Assembly (NCBI GenBank): GCA_002869895.2 | Contig: NEWP02000011.1 | Coordinates: 1-64,000 of the forward strand | DNA: 64,000 bases | Source of the DNA: Nitrospira sp. CG24E | GTDB taxonomy: Bacteria > Nitrospirota > Nitrospiria > Nitrospirales > Nitrospiraceae | Reading direction: 5' to 3' | Shown: in pieces, positions 5,535 through 20,236 of the stretch | Position numbering within the stretch: the first letter of the stretch is position 1 | Layout of the letters: the number at the start of each line of letters is the position of its first letter | The notes under the pieces: model-generated | What the model was told of the DNA's origin: nothing | Seen by the model: the letters and a program-made list of their open reading frames with translations, nothing else | Databases searched by the model: none | Program-made: the position numbers and the translations under genes

Positions 5535-6638
5535 ATGGCTTACTACATCGATCTTTTTTCACCTGAAACGTACGAAGCCTTTGGCCGCTCGACCCAAGAC
5601 ATATCGGGCTTCCGAATGCGGCACAAGGGAATGGCTGATCGAATCAAGTCAGGCGATATATTTGCGTGCTACGTAACCCGGGTATCGCGCTGGTGCGGAC
5701 TTATCGAGATCCTTGAAGGCCCCTTCATCGATAACAAGCCGATCTTCCTTCCAGAGAACGACCCTTTTGTTGTTCGCTTCCGCGTCCGACCCAAGGTGTG
5801 GCTACCAATTGACCAAGCACTCCCCATTCACAATGACAAAGTCTGGAATGGCCTTGCGTTCACTCGATCGCTGGAAAAGGGATCCATTGGGTGGACCGGT
5901 AAGGTCCGCGGTAGCCTTGTTAAGCTTGACGACAAGGACGGCAAGTTCTTGGCGGATGCGCTGACCACGCAGGCTAACTCCCACCAGGTCTACGCGCTTG
6001 ACGAAGCCGAGCGGAAGAAATTGGCAACGCACACCGTCAACCGGCCTGACAAAGTAGTCACAGTATCCGTTCCTGAAGATGCAGCTCCCACCGAAGATGT
6101 GTCAGCGCCACAGGAAGCAGAAACCCGAGAGTCAATTCGAATCCAATCCCTCATCGCGCAGATCGGAGCACGAATGGGCATGTCCATCTGGATTCCCCGC
6201 GCCGACCGCGGTGGCGTGCTTAAGGAGTGGAGGAACGATGGCCAACTCTTACTAGAGCGCCGACCGCTCAACTACGACGACACCACACTTCGTACGATCG
6301 AACAGATCGATGTTATATGGCTACGTGGTCGGTCTATCGTCCGCGCATTCGAGGTTGAGCACACTACTGCCGTTTACTCCGGCCTCCTGAGAATGGCAGA
6401 TCTGTTGGCTCTTCAACCCAACATGGACATCAAACTTCACATAGTTGCCCCTATCGCCAAGCGAGATAAGGTCTTCCAAGAGATACGCCGCCCTGTGTTT
6501 TCCCTGCTCGAAAAAGGCCCACTCGCTGAAAGCTGCACATACCTATCCTATGACAGTTTGCGTGAGCTGGCAGGGCAAAAGCATGTCGCCCATCTCTCAG
6601 ACACTGTACTCGACGAGTACGCAGAAGAAGCGGAATAG
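5535..6638 (+). CDS. EVE-domain protein fused to a nuclease-like domain
   Basis: 367 residues. Residues 1-150 look like an EVE/PUA-like domain (YYIDLFSPETYEAF, GDIFACYVTRVSRWCGLIEI, a late FRVRPKVWL strand); such domains recognise modified bases. A Pro/Glu-rich linker follows (about 180-205). The C-terminal half has a core like PD-(D/E)xK enzymes: Asp259 in IDVIWLRG and E273-V-E275-H in AFEVEHT, with the usual lysine absent. This layout suggests modification-dependent restriction, but that is inference. The next gene on the same strand is HEPN-like, 89 bp downstream. No clear Shine-Dalgarno is visible before the ATG. A non-defence role cannot be excluded. Confidence 0.6.
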   Translation: MAYYIDLFSPETYEAFGRSTQDISGFRMRHKGMADRIKSGDIFACYVTRVSRWCGLIEILEGPFIDNKPIFLPENDPFVVRFRVRPKVWLPIDQALPIHNDKVWNGLAFTRSLEKGSIGWTGKVRGSLVKLDDKDGKFLADALTTQANSHQVYALDEAERKKLATHTVNRPDKVVTVSVPEDAAPTEDVSAPQEAETRESIRIQSLIAQIGARMGMSIWIPRADRGGVLKEWRNDGQLLLERRPLNYDDTTLRTIEQIDVIWLRGRSIVRAFEVEHTTAVYSGLLRMADLLALQPNMDIKLHIVAPIAKRDKVFQEIRRPVFSLLEKGPLAESCTYLSYDSLRELAGQKHVAHLSDTVLDEYAEEAE

Positions 6639-6727
6639 ACTCGACAGCTAACTCCTCCATCGAGTAGACAGCCCCGGCAATCCGATGTCTGCCGCTCAGG
6701 TCAAATGTTAGCCGGTAAAGACAAATC

Positions 6728-7231
6728 ATGGATGCTCGTATTGTGACCACGCGGCATTGGTTTCAGAGGATCTATCTGGGAGGCATTCCCCAGATGATTC
6801 GAGACGAGACTGCATTCCTGTCGTTCATCTGCACCCTTTCCGCCATTGAAGCTCTTGCCGGCTATCGATATCAAGAGACAGGCGACACGGCACGTCCTGG
6901 ATCTCGCTTTCAACGTTTCGTTTCGGACTACTTTGCTCAGGAGTACTCTGAGCTGGCATCAGATTTGTGGAACTTCCGGAATGGGATGATCCACGGTTTC
7001 TGCCCGCGCCGTTTTGCGCTGACTCACTACCAGAGCCATCGCCATCTTCAAACCTCATCTGATTCAACTACCTTTCTCAACGCCGAAGATTTCTATGCTG
7101 CATTGGTCCAGGCTTCTGGAGCCTTCTTCCAAGAACTTGAGGGCTCAACAGAGCTTCAGGAGAACTTCTTGGCTCGGCTGAATAGCTCGCAGGGTGGCGG
7201 AATCGCCGTTGGCCCGGTCGAAGCGACATGA
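6728..7231 (+). CDS. HEPN-like protein
   Basis: 167 residues, mostly helical. The only motif I recognise is Arg84-N-G-M-I-His89 inside LWNFRNGMIHGF, which fits the Rx4-6H signature of HEPN RNases and their relatives. HEPN proteins occur as toxins and as effectors of defence systems; some only bind nucleotides. It lies 89 bp after the EVE-nuclease gene on the same strand, so the two may be co-transcribed. The C-terminal 60 residues show no known motif. Assignment rests on one motif and predicted helicity. Confidence 0.5.
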   Translation: MDARIVTTRHWFQRIYLGGIPQMIRDETAFLSFICTLSAIEALAGYRYQETGDTARPGSRFQRFVSDYFAQEYSELASDLWNFRNGMIHGFCPRRFALTHYQSHRHLQTSSDSTTFLNAEDFYAALVQASGAFFQELEGSTELQENFLARLNSSQGGGIAVGPVEAT

Positions 7232-7249
7232 AGGGTGAAATATAAGGGT

Positions 7250-7272
7250 CGGGAGTCTTTTCTTGACTCCTG
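7250..7272 (+). terminator. Short hairpin after the HEPN-like gene
   Basis: GGAGTC (7252-7257) and GACTCC (7265-7270) form a stem around a T-rich loop 20 bp after the stop codon. Without a downstream T run it is at best a weak terminator. Confidence 0.35.
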
Positions 7273-7538
7273 CCACACCGACACGTGACTCTGATCTAAG
7301 CCGACGACCCGTGCTTGCCGTGTAGCTGAATACTGAAAATAGGGAGAATGAGTGTCTGGCGTGAGTTTTGACTTATTTATGTGAGAAAGAGATGGGGTCG
7401 TTACTTGACCTTGTACTTGGCCAACCTTATAGCAGCTTGAGCGAGCAAGGTCTGTGCAGGCAACCAACCGACTCTTCCCTACCCTAAGCCGTCTACACTG
7501 AACAATCCCGGTGACCATACCGTAAGCAGTTCCTTTTC

Positions 7539-7739
7539 GGCGCGAGGGGGGAACGGGTCAGCACCCGTTGTCGGAGGGCCGGGGACCCACCGAGGCGTGA
7601 CCGAAGTGGAAAGCCGGAACTGACCAATGCACCGCGATCACTTGATCGCGGCTGCGGGAATTCCGGAAGGATTCCACGAGGTCACGCCCGGAATGGTCGC
7701 CCCGGGAGGCACGAGGGCTGACCCGCTCCCCCTCGCGCC
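7539..7739. repeat. About 200-bp imperfect palindrome
   Basis: The two halves pair along nearly their whole length: outer arms GGCGCGAGGGGGG (7539) with CCCCCTCGCGCC (to 7739), then CGGGTCAGC with GCTGACCCG, GGCGTGACC with GGTCACGCC, and a perfect apical hairpin CCGCGATCA-CT-TGATCGCGG (7632-7651). It fills much of the 637-bp gap between the HEPN-like gene and the methyltransferase, which otherwise shows no gene. It could be a MITE-like element, a structured RNA or a fold-back remnant. Confidence 0.7.
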
Positions 7740-7868
7740 CCCTCACCTTTCATCTGACTTGTCCTCAATTGTTTGTTGGTGCTACGGTGCGCTCCTGCAT
7801 TGGCAACATGCAGAAAATTGACACGTTAGATCGGGCGGCCACGCAAATTCATTTTTAGGGAGACTCTT

Positions 7869-8885
7869 ATGGCCAAGAAGCTGTCACCACCGGAAGTCAT
7901 GCGGAACCTTGCCATTGGATACTGGGTCGCGCGTCTTGTCCATATCGCCGCGAAACTCAAACTGGCCGACTTGTTGAAGAAGGGGCCTCGCACCGTTGAA
8001 GATTTGGCGACAGCCGCAGGCATCCAACCGCAAGCCCTCTACCGAATTCTCCGTGCACTGGCGAGTGTGGGCGTCTTCGCAGAAACCAAGAATCAACGGT
8101 TCAAACTCACGCCGCTCGCCGCAACGCTTCAGACAGGCATCCCCGCCTCCATGCATGCCTGGGCGCTCATGATCAACGACAACTGGGGCTGGGACGCCTG
8201 GAAGGAACTCCTCCATGGAGCCAAGACTGGCGAGATACCGTTCCTCAAGGCCCACGGCGTTCCGCTCTTCGAGTATTTTGAGAAGCACACCGAGGACCTC
8301 CAGGTCTTTGGCGAATCGATGACCAGTATCTCCGTAACCGAGAACCCCGCCATCGCAGCCGCGTATAAGTTCTCCGGAATCAGTACGCTGGTGGATGTCG
8401 GCGGCGGACATGGCAGCCTCCTGGCCACCATCCTCAAAACGAACCCAACGCTGAAGGGCGTGCTCTACGACCAGCCCTCTGTGATCGCCCGCGCTGAGAA
8501 GGACCAGCACGTGACCGCGAAAGGTATTGTGGAACGCTGCAGGCTCGAATCCGGCAACTTCTTCGAAGCAGTACCAAAGGGCGGCGACGCTTACATCATG
8601 AAGTACATCCTCCACGACTGGAACGACGAGGCCTGCGTAAAACTCCTTTCGAACTGCCGTGCCTCAATGAATGAAAAGGGGAAGGTGCTCGTCGTCGACA
8701 ACGTCATCGCTCCCGGCAACAACCCAAGCTGGGGTAAACTCCTCGACATTCAAATGCTCATCATCGGAGGGCGCGAGCGCACGAAAAAAGAGTTCGCCGC
8801 GATGTTTGCCGAAGCCGGGTTGAAATTGACTCGAGTGGTGCCGACCAAGGGGCCCCTCAGCATCGTCGAAGGAGTCCGAGCGTGA
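7869..8885 (+). CDS. SAM-dependent O-methyltransferase
   Basis: 338 residues with the plan of small-molecule O-methyltransferases (Methyltransf_2 family, as in hydroxyneurosporene and polyketide enzymes). A winged-helix dimerisation domain spans about residues 10-90 (VEDLATAAGIQPQALYRILR). The SAM site is D176-VGGGHG, and the catalytic-region motif YILHDWND lies near residue 248. These enzymes methylate hydroxyl groups of secondary metabolites, quinones or carotenoids; the substrate here cannot be read from sequence. A start at the ATG is supported by GGGAGAC eight bases upstream. It stands alone between repeats and toxin-antitoxin remnants, so it may be a transferred gene. Confidence 0.88.
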   Translation: MAKKLSPPEVMRNLAIGYWVARLVHIAAKLKLADLLKKGPRTVEDLATAAGIQPQALYRILRALASVGVFAETKNQRFKLTPLAATLQTGIPASMHAWALMINDNWGWDAWKELLHGAKTGEIPFLKAHGVPLFEYFEKHTEDLQVFGESMTSISVTENPAIAAAYKFSGISTLVDVGGGHGSLLATILKTNPTLKGVLYDQPSVIARAEKDQHVTAKGIVERCRLESGNFFEAVPKGGDAYIMKYILHDWNDEACVKLLSNCRASMNEKGKVLVVDNVIAPGNNPSWGKLLDIQMLIIGGRERTKKEFAAMFAEAGLKLTRVVPTKGPLSIVEGVRA

Positions 8886-8893
8886 CAGGCTGG

Positions 8894-8918
8894 CCTGACC
8901 GTAGGAACTGGGGTCAGG
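8894..8918 (+). terminator. Hairpin after the methyltransferase
   Basis: CCTGACC and GGTCAGG pair around a 10-nt loop just after the stop codon. The GGGGTCAGG half also occurs at 11185, so it may be a REP-like remnant rather than a true terminator; no clean T tract follows. Confidence 0.35.
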
Positions 8919-9184
8919 TCTTGTAATCCAACATTTTGCGGCGCGGGATGGGGCAGCCTGCCAGTTCGTCATTCGTCTCTCCCCTCTCGTCGTTCGTGAA
9001 TTGTAAGCGAGACAAGCAAGACGTGCGCGACTCGCAGAGATGAAGCTTCCAACCCGTCCTGCGAGTCTCGCGAGTCCCGCTGAATAACGAGATACGCTTC
9101 ACGAGCGACGGTCTTCGCGCTGGCTTCTTTGCTGGATGCCCAGCCCGCCTTGTGGGAACGGCAGAAAAATGATACCGTGCCCCT

Positions 9185-9370
9185 ATGACCCAGCTCGCCC
9201 AGAAACTTGACAAAAAACTCGCCAGCTGATGGCCTGAAGTCGCGCCTCAAGTGGAGCAGATCGTGGCCGACGTGATCGAATTGACCGACACCGACACACT
9301 GGACCTGCTGCCCTCACGGGCCGTTGTGCAAGAAGTCCTCGATGCCCTCGATGAACGCCAAGCTGGGTGA
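9185..9370 (+). pseudogene. Broken antitoxin gene (partner of MazF-like toxin)
   Basis: A 61-codon frame reads MTQLAQKLDKKLAS, then an in-frame TGA (9227-9229), then WPEVAPQVEQIVADVIEL and continues to the TGA at 9368. The last 20 bp overlap the start of the MazF-like frame, the usual antitoxin-toxin arrangement. A single base change would restore the frame. Without readthrough only 14 residues are made; a downstream GTG restart is possible. I infer an antitoxin from position and size, not from a recognised fold. Confidence 0.5.
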
Positions 9371-9669
9371 GATCTGGCTGGCCGATCTCGGGCTAGCTGC
9401 CAAAACCAGACCTGTTCTCATTATCTCCCATCACGATCCAGAAGCCCCCCCGTGCACTCCTCATTTACTTTCCACTGACCACCCAACACCGTGGCAGTCG
9501 CTATGAAGTGCCCGTGGGACCCCTTCCGTTCTTACATCAACCGTCCGTCGTGAACGTGCAAGGCATCGGAACTTTGGTCGCACCTCGGTCGGAACGCAGG
9601 CTGGGACAACTTCCAAATAAGACCATGATTAAGGTCAAAGACGCCATTCGCTTTGCCTTGGATCTCTAG
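9351..9669 (+). pseudogene. Frameshifted MazF/PemK-like toxin
   Basis: The frame starts MNAKLGEIWLADLG and LAAKTRPVLIIS, the N-terminal strands of MazF/PemK ribonucleases, and then hits a run of seven C (9445-9451). Removing one C joins it to RALLIYFPLTTQHRGSRYEV, then VNVQGIGTLV and a KVKDAIRFALDL tail, giving an intact toxin of about 105 residues. As written, the product stops at 9506 without the C-terminal half. A homopolymer slip or a sequencing error could both explain this; the upstream antitoxin is also broken. Confidence 0.72.
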
Positions 9670-9673
9670 CCAA

Positions 9674-9808
9674 CACGGGTTTCGACTGGCAGCGTATCTC
9701 CAGCATGACCTGTCGCTTACCGGCCTTGTTGCCTGGGCTGAACCCGCCATGATGGAGGGCAAATTTGATCCTCAACACTTCACGGCTATCGGCGATTTAG
9801 TCGGTGCC
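9674..9808 (+). pseudogene. Fragment of an unknown small protein
   Basis: About 45 codons (LAAYLQHDLSLTGLVAWAE, then MMEGKFDPQHFTAIGDLVG) have the composition of a real helical protein but no start of their own; the nearest ATG lies within the broken MazF gene, and the sense is lost after GDLVG. It is probably the N-terminal part of a protein whose end was deleted. I do not recognise the family. Confidence 0.3.
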
Positions 9809-9844
9809 ACGATGAAGCGGACAGAAACAGAGGTTGACCACCGT

Positions 9845-10141
9845 TCAGTTTCTTCGGCTAGGGTCGCTGAGCAACGCCTGTAATTCCTCGTAGACCGACC
9901 GGCGTGCTCCGACAAACACGACGTCGATCGTTGCCCCTTGATCGTTGATACGATAGATAATTCGGTAGGTGCGCACACGAAAAGACCTGTATCCGTCGAG
10001 GTCGAAATGCAAGGGGTGCCCGGCCAGCGGAGACTCACACACTTCTCGAATACCTTGTTTGATGTCTGACTTAATGTGCGGGTGTAGCCTTCGGATCAGC
10101 GCTGCTGCCTCGGATGTGTACCGAGCCCGAAACTTCTTCAT
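9845..10141 (-). CDS. RelE/ParE family toxin
   Basis: 98 residues, typical for the RelE/ParE superfamily. Typical features are the N-terminal FRARYTSEAAALIRRL helix segment, the SPLAGHPLHFDLDGYRSFRV strand region, and TYRIIYRI and ATIDVVFVGARRSVYEEL near the end, as in the RelE-like group that cleaves mRNA on the ribosome or the ParE group that poisons gyrase. It overlaps the preceding antitoxin by 4 bp (ATGA), so the two are translationally coupled. Target type cannot be decided from the sequence. Confidence 0.88.
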   Translation of the reverse strand: MKKFRARYTSEAAALIRRLHPHIKSDIKQGIREVCESPLAGHPLHFDLDGYRSFRVRTYRIIYRINDQGATIDVVFVGARRSVYEELQALLSDPSRRN

Positions 10142-10416
10142 GTCTGATCTTGGCCAAAGACCTTATTGTGCGCAACCCACTTGCCGGCGCGCGCTTGTTT
10201 CAGTGACCGCTTAAGGGACGGCCGGGTCCTCGCGTCGCTCAGTATCTCGATCGTCTCTGTCAATCCTTCGAACTGCTCCATGCTCAGCAGCACGGCAGAG
10301 GGGACCCCGTCCCGAGTAATGGCCACAACCTGGTGCCTCCGTTTGATGTTGCGGACGAGATCAAGGAGCTTGTTTTTTGCCTCCGTGATCGACACAAATT
10401 GATCGACTTGCGCCAT
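10138..10416 (-). CDS. Phd/YefM family antitoxin
   Basis: 92 residues. The N-terminal half is a Phd/YefM DNA-binding domain (VSITEAKNKLLDLVRNI, then QVVAITRDGVPSAVLLSMEQ), and the charged C-terminal part should wrap the toxin. A purine-rich GAAGGAGGCAGCTT precedes the ATG. It is the first gene of the pair with the RelE-like toxin, and such antitoxins normally repress their own promoter, which should lie in 10417-10480. All key parts are intact, unlike the MazEF-like pair 500 bp away. Confidence 0.88.
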   Translation of the reverse strand: MAQVDQFVSITEAKNKLLDLVRNIKRRHQVVAITRDGVPSAVLLSMEQFEGLTETIEILSDARTRPSLKRSLKQARAGKWVAHNKVFGQDQT

Positions 10417-10561
10417 AAGCTGCCTCCTTCATAGGCCAATAACTGGCCATTATATAAGCTAGTCACTACTCGTACAAGGGCAGTGGTAAGGAAAGAGTCT
10501 CTTCCCCTACCCCCCAATACGTAGGATAGCGGTTTCTACGTTGCTGCCGTATTCTCGCACT

Positions 10562-11014
10562 ATGGTGACTAGAATTCAGTCTGTCCAGTGGCGAGCGATT
10601 ATGCAGGGGGTCGCCATCGTATATGGTGTCACCTTCGTATCTGGACTGCTGTTGGCCTTCAGCGGAATTACCCCGCAGACCAATCATGTCGCCTATCCAA
10701 TCCTCGCACTAGTCACGGGAGCGGTGGGAGTGGCGATCGCACTTCGAGTGGCTGAAACGACAAGGCTTTTGTATCTTGTGGCACTTGGTTTCGGAGTCTG
10801 GCTCCTCAGCTCGACCAGCGTGTTGATTGGAGCGCAGACGGTGACTGCATGGCTAGATAGTAGCCTGTTCATCGTAACTACGGTCATCCTCGGACGGCTT
10901 CTCCTGGGAAGAGACCTCGAATCCTTATCCACATCCGACCTCTCTCATTCACGAACGATCTCCAAGAGCAACTCAAATCTACCGGCGCAGCAGAACATGA
11001 GATCGACTCTGTAG
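10562..11014 (+). CDS. Small four-helix membrane protein, unknown
   Basis: About 150 residues from the ATG at 10562 (a TTG at 10541 would add seven). Four hydrophobic segments are clear: GVAIVYGVTFVSGLLLAF, YPILALVTGAVGVAIAL, LLYLVALGFGVWLLSS and LFIVTTVILGRLLLG, followed by a polar Ser/Asn-rich tail of about 30 residues. The layout is like TIGR04086-type or YrzE-like small membrane proteins, but I do not recognise a specific family. No Shine-Dalgarno is obvious. It stands alone. Confidence 0.6.
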   Translation: MVTRIQSVQWRAIMQGVAIVYGVTFVSGLLLAFSGITPQTNHVAYPILALVTGAVGVAIALRVAETTRLLYLVALGFGVWLLSSTSVLIGAQTVTAWLDSSLFIVTTVILGRLLLGRDLESLSTSDLSHSRTISKSNSNLPAQQNMRSTL

Positions 11015-11184
11015 CCAAATAACTTCTGATGCCTCGTTTGAGATATTGTCAGTTTACCTCTCAGCTCTAGGGTCTGCGCCGTATACCCCTCGGGCTGACT
11101 ATTGCATAGACTGCAGATTGGGTCATTCGGATGGGTTAAAAACTGGCAAGGAATCGATCAGGTGCACTGAGACAGAAATGAACT

Positions 11185-11226
11185 GGGGTCAGCCACAGCC
11201 TGACTATCAAGACTGTGCCTGACCCC
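11185..11226. repeat. Inverted repeat with GGGGTCAG arms
   Basis: GGGGTCAGCCACAG and CTGTGCCTGACCCC pair with one mismatch around a 14-nt loop. It lies between the membrane protein gene at 10562 and the minus-strand mini-gene at 11255, both of which end here, and could terminate either. The same half sequence is seen at 8911. Confidence 0.5.
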
Positions 11227-11254
11227 ACCTCGTAAGACCCACTTCGATCAGGGA

Positions 11255-11359
11255 TTATTTCCCTGCAACCATGCCCATGCCCATCGCTAAGACCCCGACC
11301 AGCATGGCGATCGAGACTCCCGCGTATAACATGCCATTGATCAATATCATCGTTGTCAT
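11255..11359 (-). CDS. 34-residue membrane miniprotein
   Basis: A frame of 34 codons starts MTTMILINGMLYAGVSIAML and ends GMVAGK. It is preceded by a strong Shine-Dalgarno (GGGAGGAGG, with 6 nt to the ATG). The product is one uninterrupted hydrophobic helix rich in Met (eight residues) and Gly. Such leader-strength ribosome sites before tiny hydrophobic frames usually mark real small membrane proteins. Function is unknown. It is transcribed away from the broken sigma-54 activator on the same strand, 309 bp upstream. Confidence 0.6.
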   Translation of the reverse strand: MTTMILINGMLYAGVSIAMLVGVLAMGMGMVAGK

Positions 11360-11503
11360 CTGTTCCTCCTCCCTGAGGACCTATTCATCCAAACTCGCCA
11401 GAATGATGAGTTGAAACGTCCTTGCTGTCATGTCGGCTACAGCACAAGCCGTGCCATTCAATATTTGCTCGAATATAATCACTAACCTATTGAAATACTG
11501 AGA

Positions 11504-11600
11504 CTGAATTTTTATCTTTCGAAAAATTCAGTACGAGGGCCTAAGCTACCCCCACGATAGTTCGTGGGCAGTCGTGGGCGCACCCACGATGAATCGTGGG
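11504..11600. promoter_or_regulatory. Cluster of three hairpins/palindromes
   Basis: Three structures lie in the gap 11360-11667. A perfect 10-bp stem CTGAATTTTT/AAAAATTCAG spans 11504-11531. CCCACGA-TAGT-TCGTGGG spans 11551-11568, and the palindrome CCCACGAT-GA-ATCGTGGG spans 11583-11600, with a further CGTGGG half-site between them. The first looks like a bidirectional terminator for the sigma-54 gene; the two CCCACGA palindromes could be operators or a second terminator. The rest of the gap shows nothing. Confidence 0.45.
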
Positions 11601-11667
11601 CTGCTGATTTTGGCTGAGTAGATGTCGGGAAAGATATTCGACGGTAAGAAAAGACGTTCTATTTTCT

Positions 11668-12976
11668 TCAGCCGGCAGCCGGTCGCTTCATTCCAAACTG
11701 CTTCATTCGGCTGCGCAATGTGCTGGGAGGAATCCCCAAGCGGGCAGCAGCGCCATCGGAACCTTCGATGTGCCAATCAGTAAGCGTGAGGGTCTGCAGA
11801 ATATGCTTCCGTTCAAGTTCTTTAAGGCCTGCCGGAGGCGAGGCGCCGTTGGAGACGGAGACCTGCGAGCCTAAAATCTGCTCATCCACACGCAACAGAG
11901 GTCCATGAGAAAGAATGAGCGCCCGCTCGATCACATTTTCCAGCTCACGGACGTTGCCGGGCCAGGTATAGCGCATCAACCCCTCTAGAGATTTTTGATC
12001 GATATCCTTGCACGAACGATTGAACTTTACACAGTATTGCCTGATGAAGTGCCGGGCCAATTCTGGGATATCCTCCCCCGATTTCGTCCAAAAATAGACT
12101 GCCCCCATGAGCCAATTCAAAGCGGCCCTCGCGGGCTCGGTCGGCTCCGGTAAATGCGCCTCGTTCATGCCCAAACAATTCGCTTTCGACCAACCCGGCC
12201 GGGAAGGCGGCACAGTTGACCCGCACCAGGGGCTTCCGATGCCGCGGACTCCAATCATGGATCGCTTGCGCAATCAGTTCCTTGCCGGTTCCAGTCTCAC
12301 CCAAAATGAGCACAGTTGTAGGAGTCGGCGCAGCCTCTCGTGCAAGAGTTATCACAGTCTGAAAGGCCAGGCTCTTCCCCAGCAAGGAGTCGCTGTTCTT
12401 CGTGAGTTTCAGTTCTTCGATCAAGTAAACGTTTTCTTTGTCCAGTTGGGCGCGTAGCTGATCGATCTGTTCGTAGGCCTGAACATGATCGATCGCATAG
12501 GCTATTTGCATCGCCACTTGCGTTAGAAACTCAAGGTCCCCCGGGTCCGGCACTCCTGATTCGATGCTGCCGATATTGAGAATGCCTAGACACTTGTCTC
12601 CCACTAGCAGAGGGAGATTGATGATTCTTCCAAGGCCTTCTTGCACATACATTTTGTCTTCAGGAAAGACTTGCACCCGTTTCAGCTCAGGACGGCAGTG
12701 GACTATTTTGTGATCGTAGGCCCATCCCATCCCGCTTCCGACACGTGGGATCACGGCATCGCGTTGGAGTACCACCTGCGTCATTGTCGTAGCAAAAACA
12801 TAAAACCTGAACCCATCGACCTCGGGATCGTAGAGAGTGACCGTCGCCCTTGCCCAGGGAATCACCTTGGTGATCTCAGCGGTAATCGCTTCCCACAGGC
12901 TGTGCATCACGCGCTGCGAATTGAGCACCACAGCGACAGCCAAGAGGGCTCGATAGTTTACTTCAATCCGATCCAT
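11668..12976 (-). pseudogene. Sigma-54 activator (GAF-AAA+-Fis) with internal deletion
   Basis: Reading from the ATG at 12976 (Shine-Dalgarno GAGG; the in-frame extension to 13048 is repeat DNA): a GAF sensor domain (residues about 5-170), then the AAA+ domain with Walker [12 protein letters not shown], the loop [13 protein letters not shown] and Walker [10 protein letters not shown]. There the frame jumps directly into [15 protein letters not shown] of the other frame, followed by [11 protein letters not shown] and a Fis-type helix-turn-helix. About 70 codons normally found between DEIG and REDIP (sensor I, R finger) are missing, and the frame is lost at about 12072-12081. The product cannot be a working activator. 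Confidence 0.82.
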
Positions 12977-13001
12977 GGGATTTCCTCGCACTCTCTTACC
13001 A

Positions 13002-13144
13002 GAAGGCTGTTGAGAAAGTTCGCCAGCGTCGTTCCCTGCCTCCGCCAAAGCACTTCGCGCAGGCAGGTCGCATCCTTCAGACCCTCAACGTACCACAAGG
13101 GTACGCCTCGGGCCTTCACTCGCTGCGGCCTTGCTGGACAGCCT
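13002..13144 (-). repeat. Hairpin element, family 2, copy with internal insertion
   Basis: On the minus strand: outer arm AGGCTGTCCAGCAAGGCCGC, the hallmark GCGTACCC-TTGT-GGTACGTTGAGG, then AACGACGCTGG and the closing arm ending CTCAACAGCCT. The same order is found at 25711-25816 and 55011-55132, but this copy carries about 30 extra bases. It abuts the start of the broken sigma-54 gene and causes a false N-terminal extension of its frame. Confidence 0.7.
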
Positions 13145-13182
13145 GCTAAGTAAATTGAATCACAGCCACACACTTATGTCTA

Positions 13183-13365
13183 TCACTTCCCAGCGGAAAT
13201 CTCGATCCTCCGATAGATCATGCGCGAGCGACCATTCGACTCAGCCCAGAGGTAGCCGAATAGGCCCTTGCCGAGATAGGGCTGAGTAGCTCGTAAAAAG
13301 GGAAGCGGAAACAACCAGTCCCTGCGCGGTCTTACTCGTAGAACGCGCAGGGCAGTGAAGAGCAA
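13183..13365 (-). other. Doubtful open frame, possible gene remnant
   Basis: About 60 codons (LLFTALRVLRVRPRRDWLFP and FLRATQPYLGKGLFGYLW) read like part of a real protein but lack an ATG or ribosome site; the frame opens about 13470 after a stop. A hairpin CCTGCGCG/CGCGCAGG is inside it. I cannot name a family. The rest of 13366-13559 shows no gene. Confidence 0.25.
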
Positions 13366-13574
13366 CCAGGTCTTTCCCTCCGGGGACAGGAGCGGACCGG
13401 AATAGGCTGCGGATTGGCTGACAATTTCAAGAGCTAGAAGAGGGCAAAAGATTGAACAGGCAGCAGAGATTCAAGTAGACTGACCTCCCAGCAAATGCTC
13501 AGACTACCGTACAGTAATAGGCAACAGCCCACAGCCAACCGACTATTAGAATCGACGAGGTGAGGGTGTCCGGC

Positions 13575-13922
13575 ATGAGCGACGATGACCAGATCTTGAG
13601 GGCTTACGCCACCATCACCTCGATTCGGGCCAACGTCCCTGAGCGCCATGAAGTGGAGGAACGGTGGGTCAAGGAGTTCAATAGCGCGATCGAAAAACTT
13701 GAGCGGTCGCTGAACATCGATCTGCAGGAATTCAAGGTTCCTCAAGATGCGCTCAAACGATTTGTCGCTTCATGCAACAGCCTGACGAATGACGTGACCT
13801 ACCTCGAAGGTCTATGGTGCGAACGGGCTATTCTGATGCAGAAGCTCGACTCAGTACTGGTCTACTTCACGGGTCTACAGGACCGGGAAGAAAATCCGAT
13901 CGGTTTTCGGCCCTTCAAATAG
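13575..13922 (+). CDS. Hypothetical helical protein
   Basis: 115 residues from the ATG at 13575, chosen because AGGTGAGGG lies nine bases upstream; a GTG 15 bp earlier is possible. The protein is acidic, soluble and predicted mostly helical (HEVEERWVKEFNSAIEKLER), with two Cys and no recognised motif. The reading frame is clean with the codon choice of neighbouring genes. It precedes the folB fusion by 116 bp on the same strand. Confidence 0.6.
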   Translation: MSDDDQILRAYATITSIRANVPERHEVEERWVKEFNSAIEKLERSLNIDLQEFKVPQDALKRFVASCNSLTNDVTYLEGLWCERAILMQKLDSVLVYFTGLQDREENPIGFRPFK

Positions 13923-14038
13923 CCTCTATACCCCAGGCCAATCTCTAACCCTGTTCCGCTTCGTTCACGTTCCTCTCTTTCCGCACCCCATTGAACTATA
14001 AGTTGACAGCTGGAAATCCAATCCTTGAGAATGCCCCC

Positions 14039-14989
14039 ATGGCTGGAAAGATTATCATCGAGCGGTTGGAATTTCAGGGAAATTGCGGCGTGACCCTGGG
14101 GGAGCGTCGGCGACATCAGCCATTGGCGATAGACCTGGAACTGGAGTGCCAGACCGAGCCGGCTGCAACGTCGGATAACATCCGCCAAGCGGTCGACTAT
14201 GCCCAAGTAGCAGATCGCGTGATTGAGGTCGGAACAACACAGGATTGCGCGCTCCTTGAAACATTTGCGGAACGTCTCCTCACCATGCTCTTTTCAGAGT
14301 TTCCTATCGAACGCGCCAAGATTTGGGTACGGAAACTTGCGCCTCCACTAAAACATGCCACCGGCTCGGTGGGTGTGCAACTCGAACGATCGCGTCTGTC
14401 TCACCAGATTCAGGATGCGGGGCCGACTCCGGCTCAGTTTCTGACTCAGCAGCTCCATCGCTTGCCGAAAGGCAAGGCACTCGATGTTGCAGCCGGGTCT
14501 GGACGCCACTCGCTCTATCTGGCCTCGCATGGCTACCATGTCGATGCGATGGACCGAGACGAACAGGCCATGGCCCAGCTCGCTGTGACAGCCACGCGGC
14601 AAAATTTTCCCAATCTCCATGTCCGGACGATAGACCTCGAACGGGCGACCGACGAACGGACTGAATTTCCGAAACACGAATATGACGTGATCCTCGTATT
14701 TTTCTATCTCCACCGCGCACTCTTTCCCTCGCTCATCGAATCCCTGAAGCCCAACGGAGTCTTGATCTGCGAAACCTTCACTATCGACAACTATCTGCGC
14801 CATCACCATCCTCGCCGGTGGGAATTTTGTCTGGCGCAGAATGAATTGCTCCGGCTCACATCGACACTCAACGTATTGTCCTACGACGAAGGCGAACACA
14901 ACGGTAGTCATGGACCAGGCTCTGCCTATACTGCGCAACTCGTTGCCCAACAGGCGGGTACCGGGAGCCTCTCGCACGAGTCGTCATGA
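14039..14989 (+). CDS. FolB (dihydroneopterin aldolase)-methyltransferase fusion
   Basis: 316 residues. Residues 1-118 match dihydroneopterin aldolase: IIIERLEFQGNCGVTLGER, the CALLETFAERL segment with the substrate-binding Glu, and PPLKHATGSVGV with the catalytic Lys region. FolB converts 7,8-dihydroneopterin to 6-hydroxymethyl-dihydropterin in folate synthesis. Residues 125-316 are a class I SAM methyltransferase of the TehB/UbiE kind, with motif I ALDVAAGSGRHS (about 146-157), acidic AMDRDE and YDVILVFFYLHR. The two domains share one frame without a stop. It overlaps the PHP gene by 4 bp (ATGA). The methyl acceptor is unknown; a pterin is a tempting guess only. Confidence 0.82.
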   Translation: MAGKIIIERLEFQGNCGVTLGERRRHQPLAIDLELECQTEPAATSDNIRQAVDYAQVADRVIEVGTTQDCALLETFAERLLTMLFSEFPIERAKIWVRKLAPPLKHATGSVGVQLERSRLSHQIQDAGPTPAQFLTQQLHRLPKGKALDVAAGSGRHSLYLASHGYHVDAMDRDEQAMAQLAVTATRQNFPNLHVRTIDLERATDERTEFPKHEYDVILVFFYLHRALFPSLIESLKPNGVLICETFTIDNYLRHHHPRRWEFCLAQNELLRLTSTLNVLSYDEGEHNGSHGPGSAYTAQLVAQQAGTGSLSHESS

Positions 14990-15843
14990 GCAGCCTCGAC
15001 CTCCATCTTCATACGACCCATTCCGATGGAAGCCTCACGCCGGCTGAGGTGCTCAGACTCGCCCACAAGGTAGGGGTCACAGCTTTGGCCATTACGGACC
15101 ACGACATTGTGTCCGGTATTCCCGAAGCCTTAGCTGCCGGAGCGGAGGTGGGAATTGAAATCATTCCCGGCGTGGAAATCAGCTCCCACATCGGCAACAG
15201 CGAGCTTCATATCCTCGGCTATTGCATTCAGTGGGAAGACCCGGAGCTGAATCAACGCTTGGCTGCCTTGCGCGAGAGCCGGCACAGCCGCAATCCCCAG
15301 ATCGTCGAACGGCTGCGCTCATTGGGGCTGGACGTGACTTATGAAGAAGTGCGGGCTCTGGCCGGCACAGATTCGGTCGGCCGACCGCATATTGCGCGGC
15401 TCTTGATGGACAAAAAGTATGTGACGTCTGCCAAGGATGCCTTTGACCGATATCTGGCAGAAGGGCGCCCTGCTTATGTGGCGCGTGAACTACCCAAGCC
15501 GGCGGATGCTATCGCCTGGATCAGAGCCGCTGGCGGGGTCGCTGTGTTGGCCCATCCAACTTGGGCCAAGGTATCCGGAGAAGGACTGAACGGCCTCCTG
15601 ACGACATTGAAAGCTGAAGGCCTTGGCGGCATCGAAGTCCACTACAGTACCCACACAAAACGTCAGACGACGGAATACCTCGATCTGGCCAAGCGGTTAC
15701 ATTTATTGGTCACCGGGGGCAGCGATTTCCACGGCGTCACCAAGCCGGACATTGAAGTCGGTAGAGGCCGGGGCGATTTGAAAGTTTCCACAAAACTGCT
15801 CGATCCACTCAAGAAGGCAGCCCTCTCCGGCACTCATTCATAG
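14986..15843 (+). CDS. PHP-domain phosphoesterase (RNase AM/YciV-like)
   Basis: 285 residues. The metal-binding PHP motifs are intact: H7-L-H9 and D14 in LHLHTTHSDG, ITDHD about residue 38-42, PGVEIS, an AHPTW motif (near 187) and GSDFHG near the end. The layout is that of the YciV/TrpH group, whose E. coli member (RNase AM) is a 5'-3' exonuclease that also hydrolyses 3',5'-nucleoside bisphosphates such as pAp. The ATG overlaps the folB-fusion stop, so both are translated from one mRNA. Specific substrate is inferred from the family. Confidence 0.88.
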   Translation: MSSLDLHLHTTHSDGSLTPAEVLRLAHKVGVTALAITDHDIVSGIPEALAAGAEVGIEIIPGVEISSHIGNSELHILGYCIQWEDPELNQRLAALRESRHSRNPQIVERLRSLGLDVTYEEVRALAGTDSVGRPHIARLLMDKKYVTSAKDAFDRYLAEGRPAYVARELPKPADAIAWIRAAGGVAVLAHPTWAKVSGEGLNGLLTTLKAEGLGGIEVHYSTHTKRQTTEYLDLAKRLHLLVTGGSDFHGVTKPDIEVGRGRGDLKVSTKLLDPLKKAALSGTHS

Positions 15844-19096: not shown

Positions 19097-20110
19097 TTAG
19101 TTTTCTGGAGTTTCGACGATGTGGTTTTCGAACCTGGTGCAGCCTTCGGCAAGCAACCGATTGGTGAGCATTTCTCCAGGCCATTCGATGGGTAAATCCG
19201 CAGTAAAGATCCATACATCGGGGGAGGTCCACACGGGGCCGTGGCCTTCGGGCAATTCGGGGTCAAACAGATCGGTCCAGACAGGCATGTACACGCCGTT
19301 CCCACATTGTGTATGGAGGTGCACAATCGTGCGGGCACGGACGAGCGGGTCCAGATCACGCCAGACTGCCGCGGTCTCATCTGCCAGTCGATGGAGACGC
19401 ACAGCATTTTGCGCGTCAAACATGGCATAGGCGGCGTAGACCGGTGGTTCGATCATATCGGGAGCCAGCGCCAACTCAGGACATTGTCCCACGAGGCCTT
19501 CAAGGAGAGCCCGACGATGCCGATCTTCCAGCGAATCAGGCAATCCAGAGTCCGGCACACCGATCAATTCAAAAAAGAGAAAGGCGGTGCTCTCGACAGG
19601 CGGATACAGCCGCGCAGCTATCGAGGTGGCCCGCTGGGAATCCGCCACCGTGCTCAAATGATCGTTCAAGCCCTGCAGGCTGAGCGGTTCCAGCGTCGAA
19701 TCGGTCAAGAGGCGCGACTCCACACGCACCACCGTCCCGGCGGAAAGCTGGAGGTGGCGGTGCAACAGATCGGCTGTCGCAATCGGGTCGATTTTCAACT
19801 GAAGTGGATGGGCCAGATTCGCTTGGAGAGGAAGTTCCAAGGCTGCCATAACGGCATAGGACAATTTGTCATCGACCGGCCCATCGATGAGCACGGAGCA
19901 GGATGCCTCAGCGAGAAGATCGAAGAGCCATTCCGCCATGTCCTCATCCAACGCTGCCAACACCGTGAGGAGATCATACTCCCGCCCCTGCTCCAAGAAG
20001 GCCTGCAACGTATCGATTGCCGCATCGGTATCACCATGGTCATGGCGCCGGGCGTTGATCAAATGAACGAGATCTCTTGTGAGGGGATCAGGACGAGACC
20101 AACTCAACAT
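19097..20110 (-). CDS. Hypothetical protein, 337 residues
   Basis: The start at ATG 20110 has GGAG eight bases upstream; a TTG at 20161 would add 17 residues. The protein is acidic and soluble, mixed helical (TDAAIDTLQAFLEQGREYD, LSYAVMAALELPLQ), with no signal peptide and no motif I can place. The long plus-strand frame lying opposite is its shadow: its composition is Arg/Gln-rich and unlike a natural protein. The C-terminal third is rich in Trp and Pro (VWTDLFDPELPEGHGPVWTS). Confidence 0.65.
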   Translation of the reverse strand: MLSWSRPDPLTRDLVHLINARRHDHGDTDAAIDTLQAFLEQGREYDLLTVLAALDEDMAEWLFDLLAEASCSVLIDGPVDDKLSYAVMAALELPLQANLAHPLQLKIDPIATADLLHRHLQLSAGTVVRVESRLLTDSTLEPLSLQGLNDHLSTVADSQRATSIAARLYPPVESTAFLFFELIGVPDSGLPDSLEDRHRRALLEGLVGQCPELALAPDMIEPPVYAAYAMFDAQNAVRLHRLADETAAVWRDLDPLVRARTIVHLHTQCGNGVYMPVWTDLFDPELPEGHGPVWTSPDVWIFTADLPIEWPGEMLTNRLLAEGCTRFENHIVETPEN

Positions 20111-20236
20111 ACAGAGCACTCCTGCCGCGAAACCATGGATGACACCCGCCCATGTTGTCAAACTTTCGTGATGGTAGCAAGCGCTCGAGCATTTTTTTTC
20201 CGCAGGGTGTGCGACCCCGACCAGACGACAAAATGA

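Follow-up and report, generated by a model that had tools for sequence, protein, structure and literature searches.

Dihydroneopterin aldolase (FolB) is known as a part of larger, fused proteins. A FolB-FolK-FolP fusion of eukaryotes is described in PMC4224340, and pneumococcus possesses a bifunctional FolB-FolK (PDB 2cg8) in which FolB is joined to another enzyme, as in the gene product analyzed here. The partners of FolB in these proteins are the next folate enzymes, whereas the partner found in Nitrospirales is no folate enzyme. Its best structural match is Slr1183 of Synechocystis (PDB 3mer, 2kw5, 2n47), a stand-alone SAM methyltransferase which, unlike the fused protein, is without FolB; no paper on the function of Slr1183 was found among open-licence PMC papers. 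The fold is also that of the tellurite-resistance methyltransferase TehB (PDB 2xva). A search of open-licence PMC papers for FolB, methyltransferase, fusion and Nitrospira yielded no paper on a fusion of FolB with a methyltransferase. The protein is a new domain architecture built from known parts.

The window, i.e., the whole stretch of 64,000 nucleotides of Nitrospira sp. CG24E that was analyzed, harbors the following features.

14039..14989, plus strand: folB-methyltransferase fusion gene, one open frame of 316 aa plus stop
14051..14386, plus strand: FolB (dihydroneopterin aldolase) domain, residues 5-116, catalytic E22, Y54, E74 and K99 retained
14387..14428, plus strand: variable linker, about residues 117-130
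14429..14953, plus strand: TehB/Slr1183-type class I SAM methyltransferase domain, about residues 131-305
14986..15843, plus strand: PHP-domain phosphoesterase gene (PF02811, E 6.5e-12), overlapping the fusion gene by 4 nt

The fusion gene starts with ATG at 14039, and its stop codon ends at 14989; an alternative TTG at 13991 would lengthen the frame. Residues 5-116 scored above the cut-off of the FolB family PF02152 (E 7.7e-27; 94.5 bits, cut-off 31.8), and the score for TIGR00525 was also above its cut-off (82.2 bits, cut-off 72.15). In the methyltransferase half, which takes up about residues 125-308, residues 143-284 matched PF03848, TehB (E 2e-14; 53.9 bits, cut-off 20.4). FolB is truly fused to a class I SAM methyltransferase, as the preliminary description had stated. 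The equivalog models of TehB tellurite resistance scored far below their cut-offs, with 54.6 versus 218 bits for NF008405 and 53.7 versus 219.5 bits for TIGR00477. The methyltransferase of the window thus belongs to the broad PF03848 but differs from TehB in falling below the equivalogs and in a signature of its own, PRR.EFC..NELL. Fused and stand-alone methyltransferases were compared for the SAM motif and for this signature; the signature was present in most fused and stand-alone forms, and the SAM motif was common to both.

METHYLTRANSFERASE

Both sets of catalytic motifs proved to be intact, as had been proposed. E22, Y54, E74 and K99 of FolB were invariant in 23/23 fused proteins, which represent all four families of the order, and the catalytic residues also lined up with those of solved FolB enzymes in an alignment. 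We take the catalytic residues of S. aureus FolB to be E22, Y54, E74 and K100, and E22, Y54, E74 and K99 of the fused protein to be the same Glu, Tyr, Glu and Lys. Y53 and K98 of Yersinia pestis FolB, the residues altered in 7su4 and 7su6, lie opposite Y54 and K99. SAM motif I (the acidic-x-x-x-G-x-G region) reads ALDVAAGSGR, and its D149, G153 and G155 were likewise invariant in all 23 fused proteins. Apart from the added C-terminal methyltransferase of about 190 residues, the fused protein differs from known FolB proteins by KL after the catalytic lysine instead of the usual KP.

An AlphaFold model of the fused protein had a mean pLDDT of 85.3 and a pTM of 0.59; because of this pTM, the relative placing of the two domains is not fixed by the model. 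The predicted FolB part superimposed on 1sql with Z 18.5 (rmsd 1.6, 120 residues aligned), and FolB matches, with 3o1k among the PDB relatives, ranged from Z 17.9 to 18.5. The predicted C-terminal half matched 3mer with Z 23.3 (rmsd 1.9, 167 aligned, 28% identity) and 2xva with Z 22.7 (rmsd 2.5, 174 aligned). Linker residues 121-130 form a block with a pLDDT of 59, and the mean pairwise identity of residues 119-130 was 0.195 in an alignment of the 23 fused proteins.

Two separate genes joined by an assembly or sequencing error would also give such a frame, and the preliminary description had pointed to an independent assembly as the means to expose such an error. We searched 395 genomes of the phylum with the whole protein; 143 of them, counted by hand, belong to the order of the window, namely 14 of the same genus (own genome included), 96 others of the family and 33 from three other families. 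Both domains were found within one match in 140 of these 143 genomes. In genome G218, the two parts are found on two contigs, each at an end, and the first of them extends into the methyltransferase domain; the family members G288 (99% complete) and G380 (88%) gave no fusion match and contained no FolB at all. Stop codons were flagged in ten of the 140 matches; in each of these cases, a single open frame of 305-399 residues contains both domains. The identical junction occurs in single-contig genomes, G055, G108, G139 and G145 among others. The recurrence of the same junction in 140/143 genomes therefore excludes a fusion by sequencing error; the joining of two genes by an error of either kind was rejected on this recurrence and on the 10/10 flagged cases in one frame, and its probability is practically nil.

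The proposal to check whether Nitrospirota homologues keep the fusion received a divided answer: the order keeps it, and the genomes examined from the remainder of the phylum do not. No match covering both domains was obtained in 20/20 genomes of other orders of the same class; in one of these (G181), the FolB match is located 216 kb from the best methyltransferase match on the same contig. In the remainder of the phylum, an intact reading frame over both domains was absent from 28/28 genomes examined; the FolB matches of G035 and G011 there reach query residue 164 and 169, respectively, with 4 and 2 stop codons on the way.

Furthermore, named genomes were scanned with an alignment of stand-alone methyltransferases, which gave 80 loci. 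FolB was present in the same frame at 18 of them (in part at L141, which is located at a contig edge), and all 18 are attributable to the order of the window. The records are titled Nitrospira, Nitrospirales, Nitrospirae or Nitrospirota; L149 is titled Nitrospinota, yet is attributed to the order as well. The remaining 62 loci had no FolB in their flanks and belong to Chloroflexota, Planctomycetota, Acidobacteriota, Nitrospinota, Campylobacterota, Bdellovibrionota, haloarchaea and others, including some Nitrospirota. Thirty genomes with such unfused loci were searched whole, and 28 were without the fusion; the other two (G487 and G488, both titled Nitrospirota) possess the fusion as well as an additional stand-alone methyltransferase. 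This second methyltransferase (L168, L159) groups with Nitrospinota sequences. A fused case beyond the order was sought and found neither among the 80 named loci nor in these 28 of 30 whole genomes. The layout is indeed unusual, as initially described: the fusion is old, conserved across the order and confined to it in all genomes searched.

No FolB other than the fused one was found in the genome of the window. A single FolK (HPPK) is encoded elsewhere, on contig C27 (PF01288, 92.4 bits), and the product of FolB therefore has its usual next step; FolK together with a single FolB constitutes an ordinary folate route. A FolB match was obtained in 222 of 235 genomes of the order, with exactly one in 219 of the 222 and two in three. 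Among the matches listed, the FolB places of the order lie in open frames of at least 304 residues, with the exceptions of G376:C39, G428:C196 and G475:C506, the last two of which are located at contig ends. The genomes with two FolB are G428, where the fusion occurs twice and one copy is truncated at a contig end, G405, and G376, which has an extra stand-alone FolB besides its fused copy (L234:2224-2721, minus strand, a frame of 166 aa). The fused copy of G376 keeps the four catalytic residues and differs at L72 and S110, both invariant in the other 23. Since a second FolB is rare in the order and the catalytic residues of the fused one do not vary, the fused protein, judged by its sequence, most likely serves ordinary folate synthesis.

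The methyltransferase group is old and widespread as a single gene in bacteria and haloarchaea. A tree of 108 sequences built by a quick method united the 23 fused proteins in one group, with 1 change and a support of 77, and placed them among Nitrospirota stand-alone forms. No FolB match was found in 9 of 17 genomes of the phylum having the stand-alone methyltransferase, including G006 (98% complete), G333 (99%), G112 and G124 (both 100%). PTPS-III is named as a FolB substitute in PMC3223725. Some methyltransferases of FolB-less genomes are distant, with 32-36% identity to the query; stand-alone relatives with 45-47% identity occur in G006, G016 and G025 of family f19 (98, 92 and 89% complete), in which no FolB was detected.

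No partner gene recurs beside the stand-alone methyltransferase: no neighbor cluster appeared more than 5 times across the named loci, a count resting on 47 of the 62 loci, with the methyltransferase frame lost by the longest-ORF caller in 15. PrmA was the neighbor in one family; other families had either a 4Fe-4S ferredoxin or a ChaN/PDZ protein beside the methyltransferase. A PHROGs search matched two unnamed families only.

Comparison with 11 same-genus relatives gave dN/dS values of 0.058-0.149 for FolB (10 pairs, the remaining pair being saturated) and 0.074-0.122 for the methyltransferase part (11 pairs). Both domains are under purifying selection. The absence of a conserved partner of the stand-alone forms would fit a neutral fusion, in which the methyltransferase would serve FolB as an appendage for folding or assembly and its activity would be useless. 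This explanation is improbable: the methyltransferase part is more conserved than FolB (mean pairwise identity 0.577 versus 0.492 in the 23 fused proteins) and under similar purifying selection, and its SAM motif is invariant.

The surroundings of the fusion gene were analyzed by tblastn on 20 fused loci with wide flanks. This program was used for the neighbor counts because the longest-ORF caller gave false antisense ORFs (in some rows of cluster c0) and missed the fusion gene itself in L098, L100 and L101. The PHP gene follows in 16/20 fused loci and, in the window, overlaps by 4 nt, in agreement with the coupling to a PHP phosphoesterase noted earlier. Over nearly its whole length, the PHP protein best matched NF041577 (236.7 bits) and NF047791 (199.9 bits) and thus resembles 3',5'-nucleoside bisphosphate phosphatase/RNase AM, with scores below both cut-offs (400 and 375); on this comparison it does not resemble a known folate enzyme. 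Opposite the fusion gene, 16/20 loci have moaC, a ThiS/MoaD-MoaE fusion and moaA, accompanied in 14/20 by a FolC-like gene, so named from its motif; its 93-residue piece gave no Pfam match.

The MoaD-like (ThiS) and MoaE parts form one protein of 240 aa beside moaA and moaC, e.g., at L093:6213-6935 (minus strand) and at other loci of L092-L111. The moaC-moaDE-moaA-accD cluster is absent from the window (as noted at positions 6000-14039), though it lies opposite the fusion in most relatives; in L092, of the same genus, it starts about 3 kb away. Additionally, a protein of 337-354 aa is encoded downstream of the fusion in 17/20 loci (19097-20161, minus strand, in the window); its relative in L092 gave no Pfam match.

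These surroundings, together with the order-wide, single-copy fusion and the retention of both active sites, would suit a methyltransferase that converts the substrate or product of FolB, or else dihydroxanthopterin or another side product, to a methylated pterin, with the fusion coupling the steps. We regard such a coupling as unlikely. The stand-alone relatives with 45-47% identity occur in FolB-less genomes (G006, G016, G025), 0/62 named stand-alone loci have FolB in the flank, and PHP, Moa, AccD and FolC-like genes are absent at all 20 stand-alone loci of the phylum; moreover, FolK supplies the usual next step for the FolB product. Very doubtful is a version in which methyltransferase and PHP protein would form a compact pterin-tailoring unit beside the molybdopterin genes, the pterin of the FolB site being methylated on one particle and the PHP protein taking the last phosphate off dihydroneopterin monophosphate. 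If true, these nitrifiers would possess a previously undescribed methylated pterin.

Archaeal methanopterin synthesis also has a dihydroneopterin aldolase step, and this is the sole point in favor of a tetrahydromethanopterin-like cofactor branch. Beta-RFAP synthase (TIGR00144) gave 0 matches in the own genome, whereas the control matched in 4 of 14 known genomes; because this enzyme is missing, the branch was rejected, and it is extremely improbable. To our knowledge, methanopterin is methylated by radical SAM enzymes, not by class I methyltransferases, which also counts against it. Hence, the methylated-pterin or tetrahydromethanopterin branch hinted at in the preliminary description is not borne out: the synthase is lacking, FolK and the single FolB provide the usual way to folate, the methyltransferase comes from an old stand-alone family without folate neighbors that is present in FolB-less genomes, and the PHP protein stays below its model cut-offs. 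Nothing shows that the fusion makes a new cofactor.

With a probability of about two in three, the gene is best read as a clade-specific fusion of a normal FolB with a working methyltransferase acting on a small molecule, no shared substrate being needed. We infer a single fusion event in an ancestor of Nitrospirales, by which folB became linked to a SAM methyltransferase of the TehB/Slr1183 group that already existed as a stand-alone protein. The N-terminal domain would be the dihydroneopterin aldolase of the cell, converting dihydroneopterin to 6-hydroxymethyl-dihydropterin and glycolaldehyde for folate synthesis. The C-terminal domain would be an active SAM methyltransferase, carried on the FolB ring without need for a common substrate and acting on a small, probably soft-nucleophile (thiol or metalloid) molecule; this kind of acceptor is suggested by the likeness to TehB. 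In favor of the clade-specific fusion are the 140/143 fused genomes of the order, the 20/20 unfused genomes of the class, the single FolB in 219/222 genomes and the presence of FolK. Against it, order-wide retention hints at a functional link that a lack of shared substrate leaves unexplained, the moaC-moaDE-moaA and FolC-like surroundings (16 and 14 of 20 loci) are pterin-flavored, and the one-group result of the tree has a support of only 77.

The bacteria of the window are relatives of the nitrite-oxidizing Nitrospira, and the fusion can serve to mark the Nitrospirales clade. For the widespread Slr1183-like methyltransferase group, it is a clue of the Rosetta-stone type to the substrate. 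As nearly all these organisms have no FolB but the fused one, a link between folate and the methyltransferase is directly testable with one recombinant protein; if there is no such link, the case would caution against inferring pathway meaning from a fusion.
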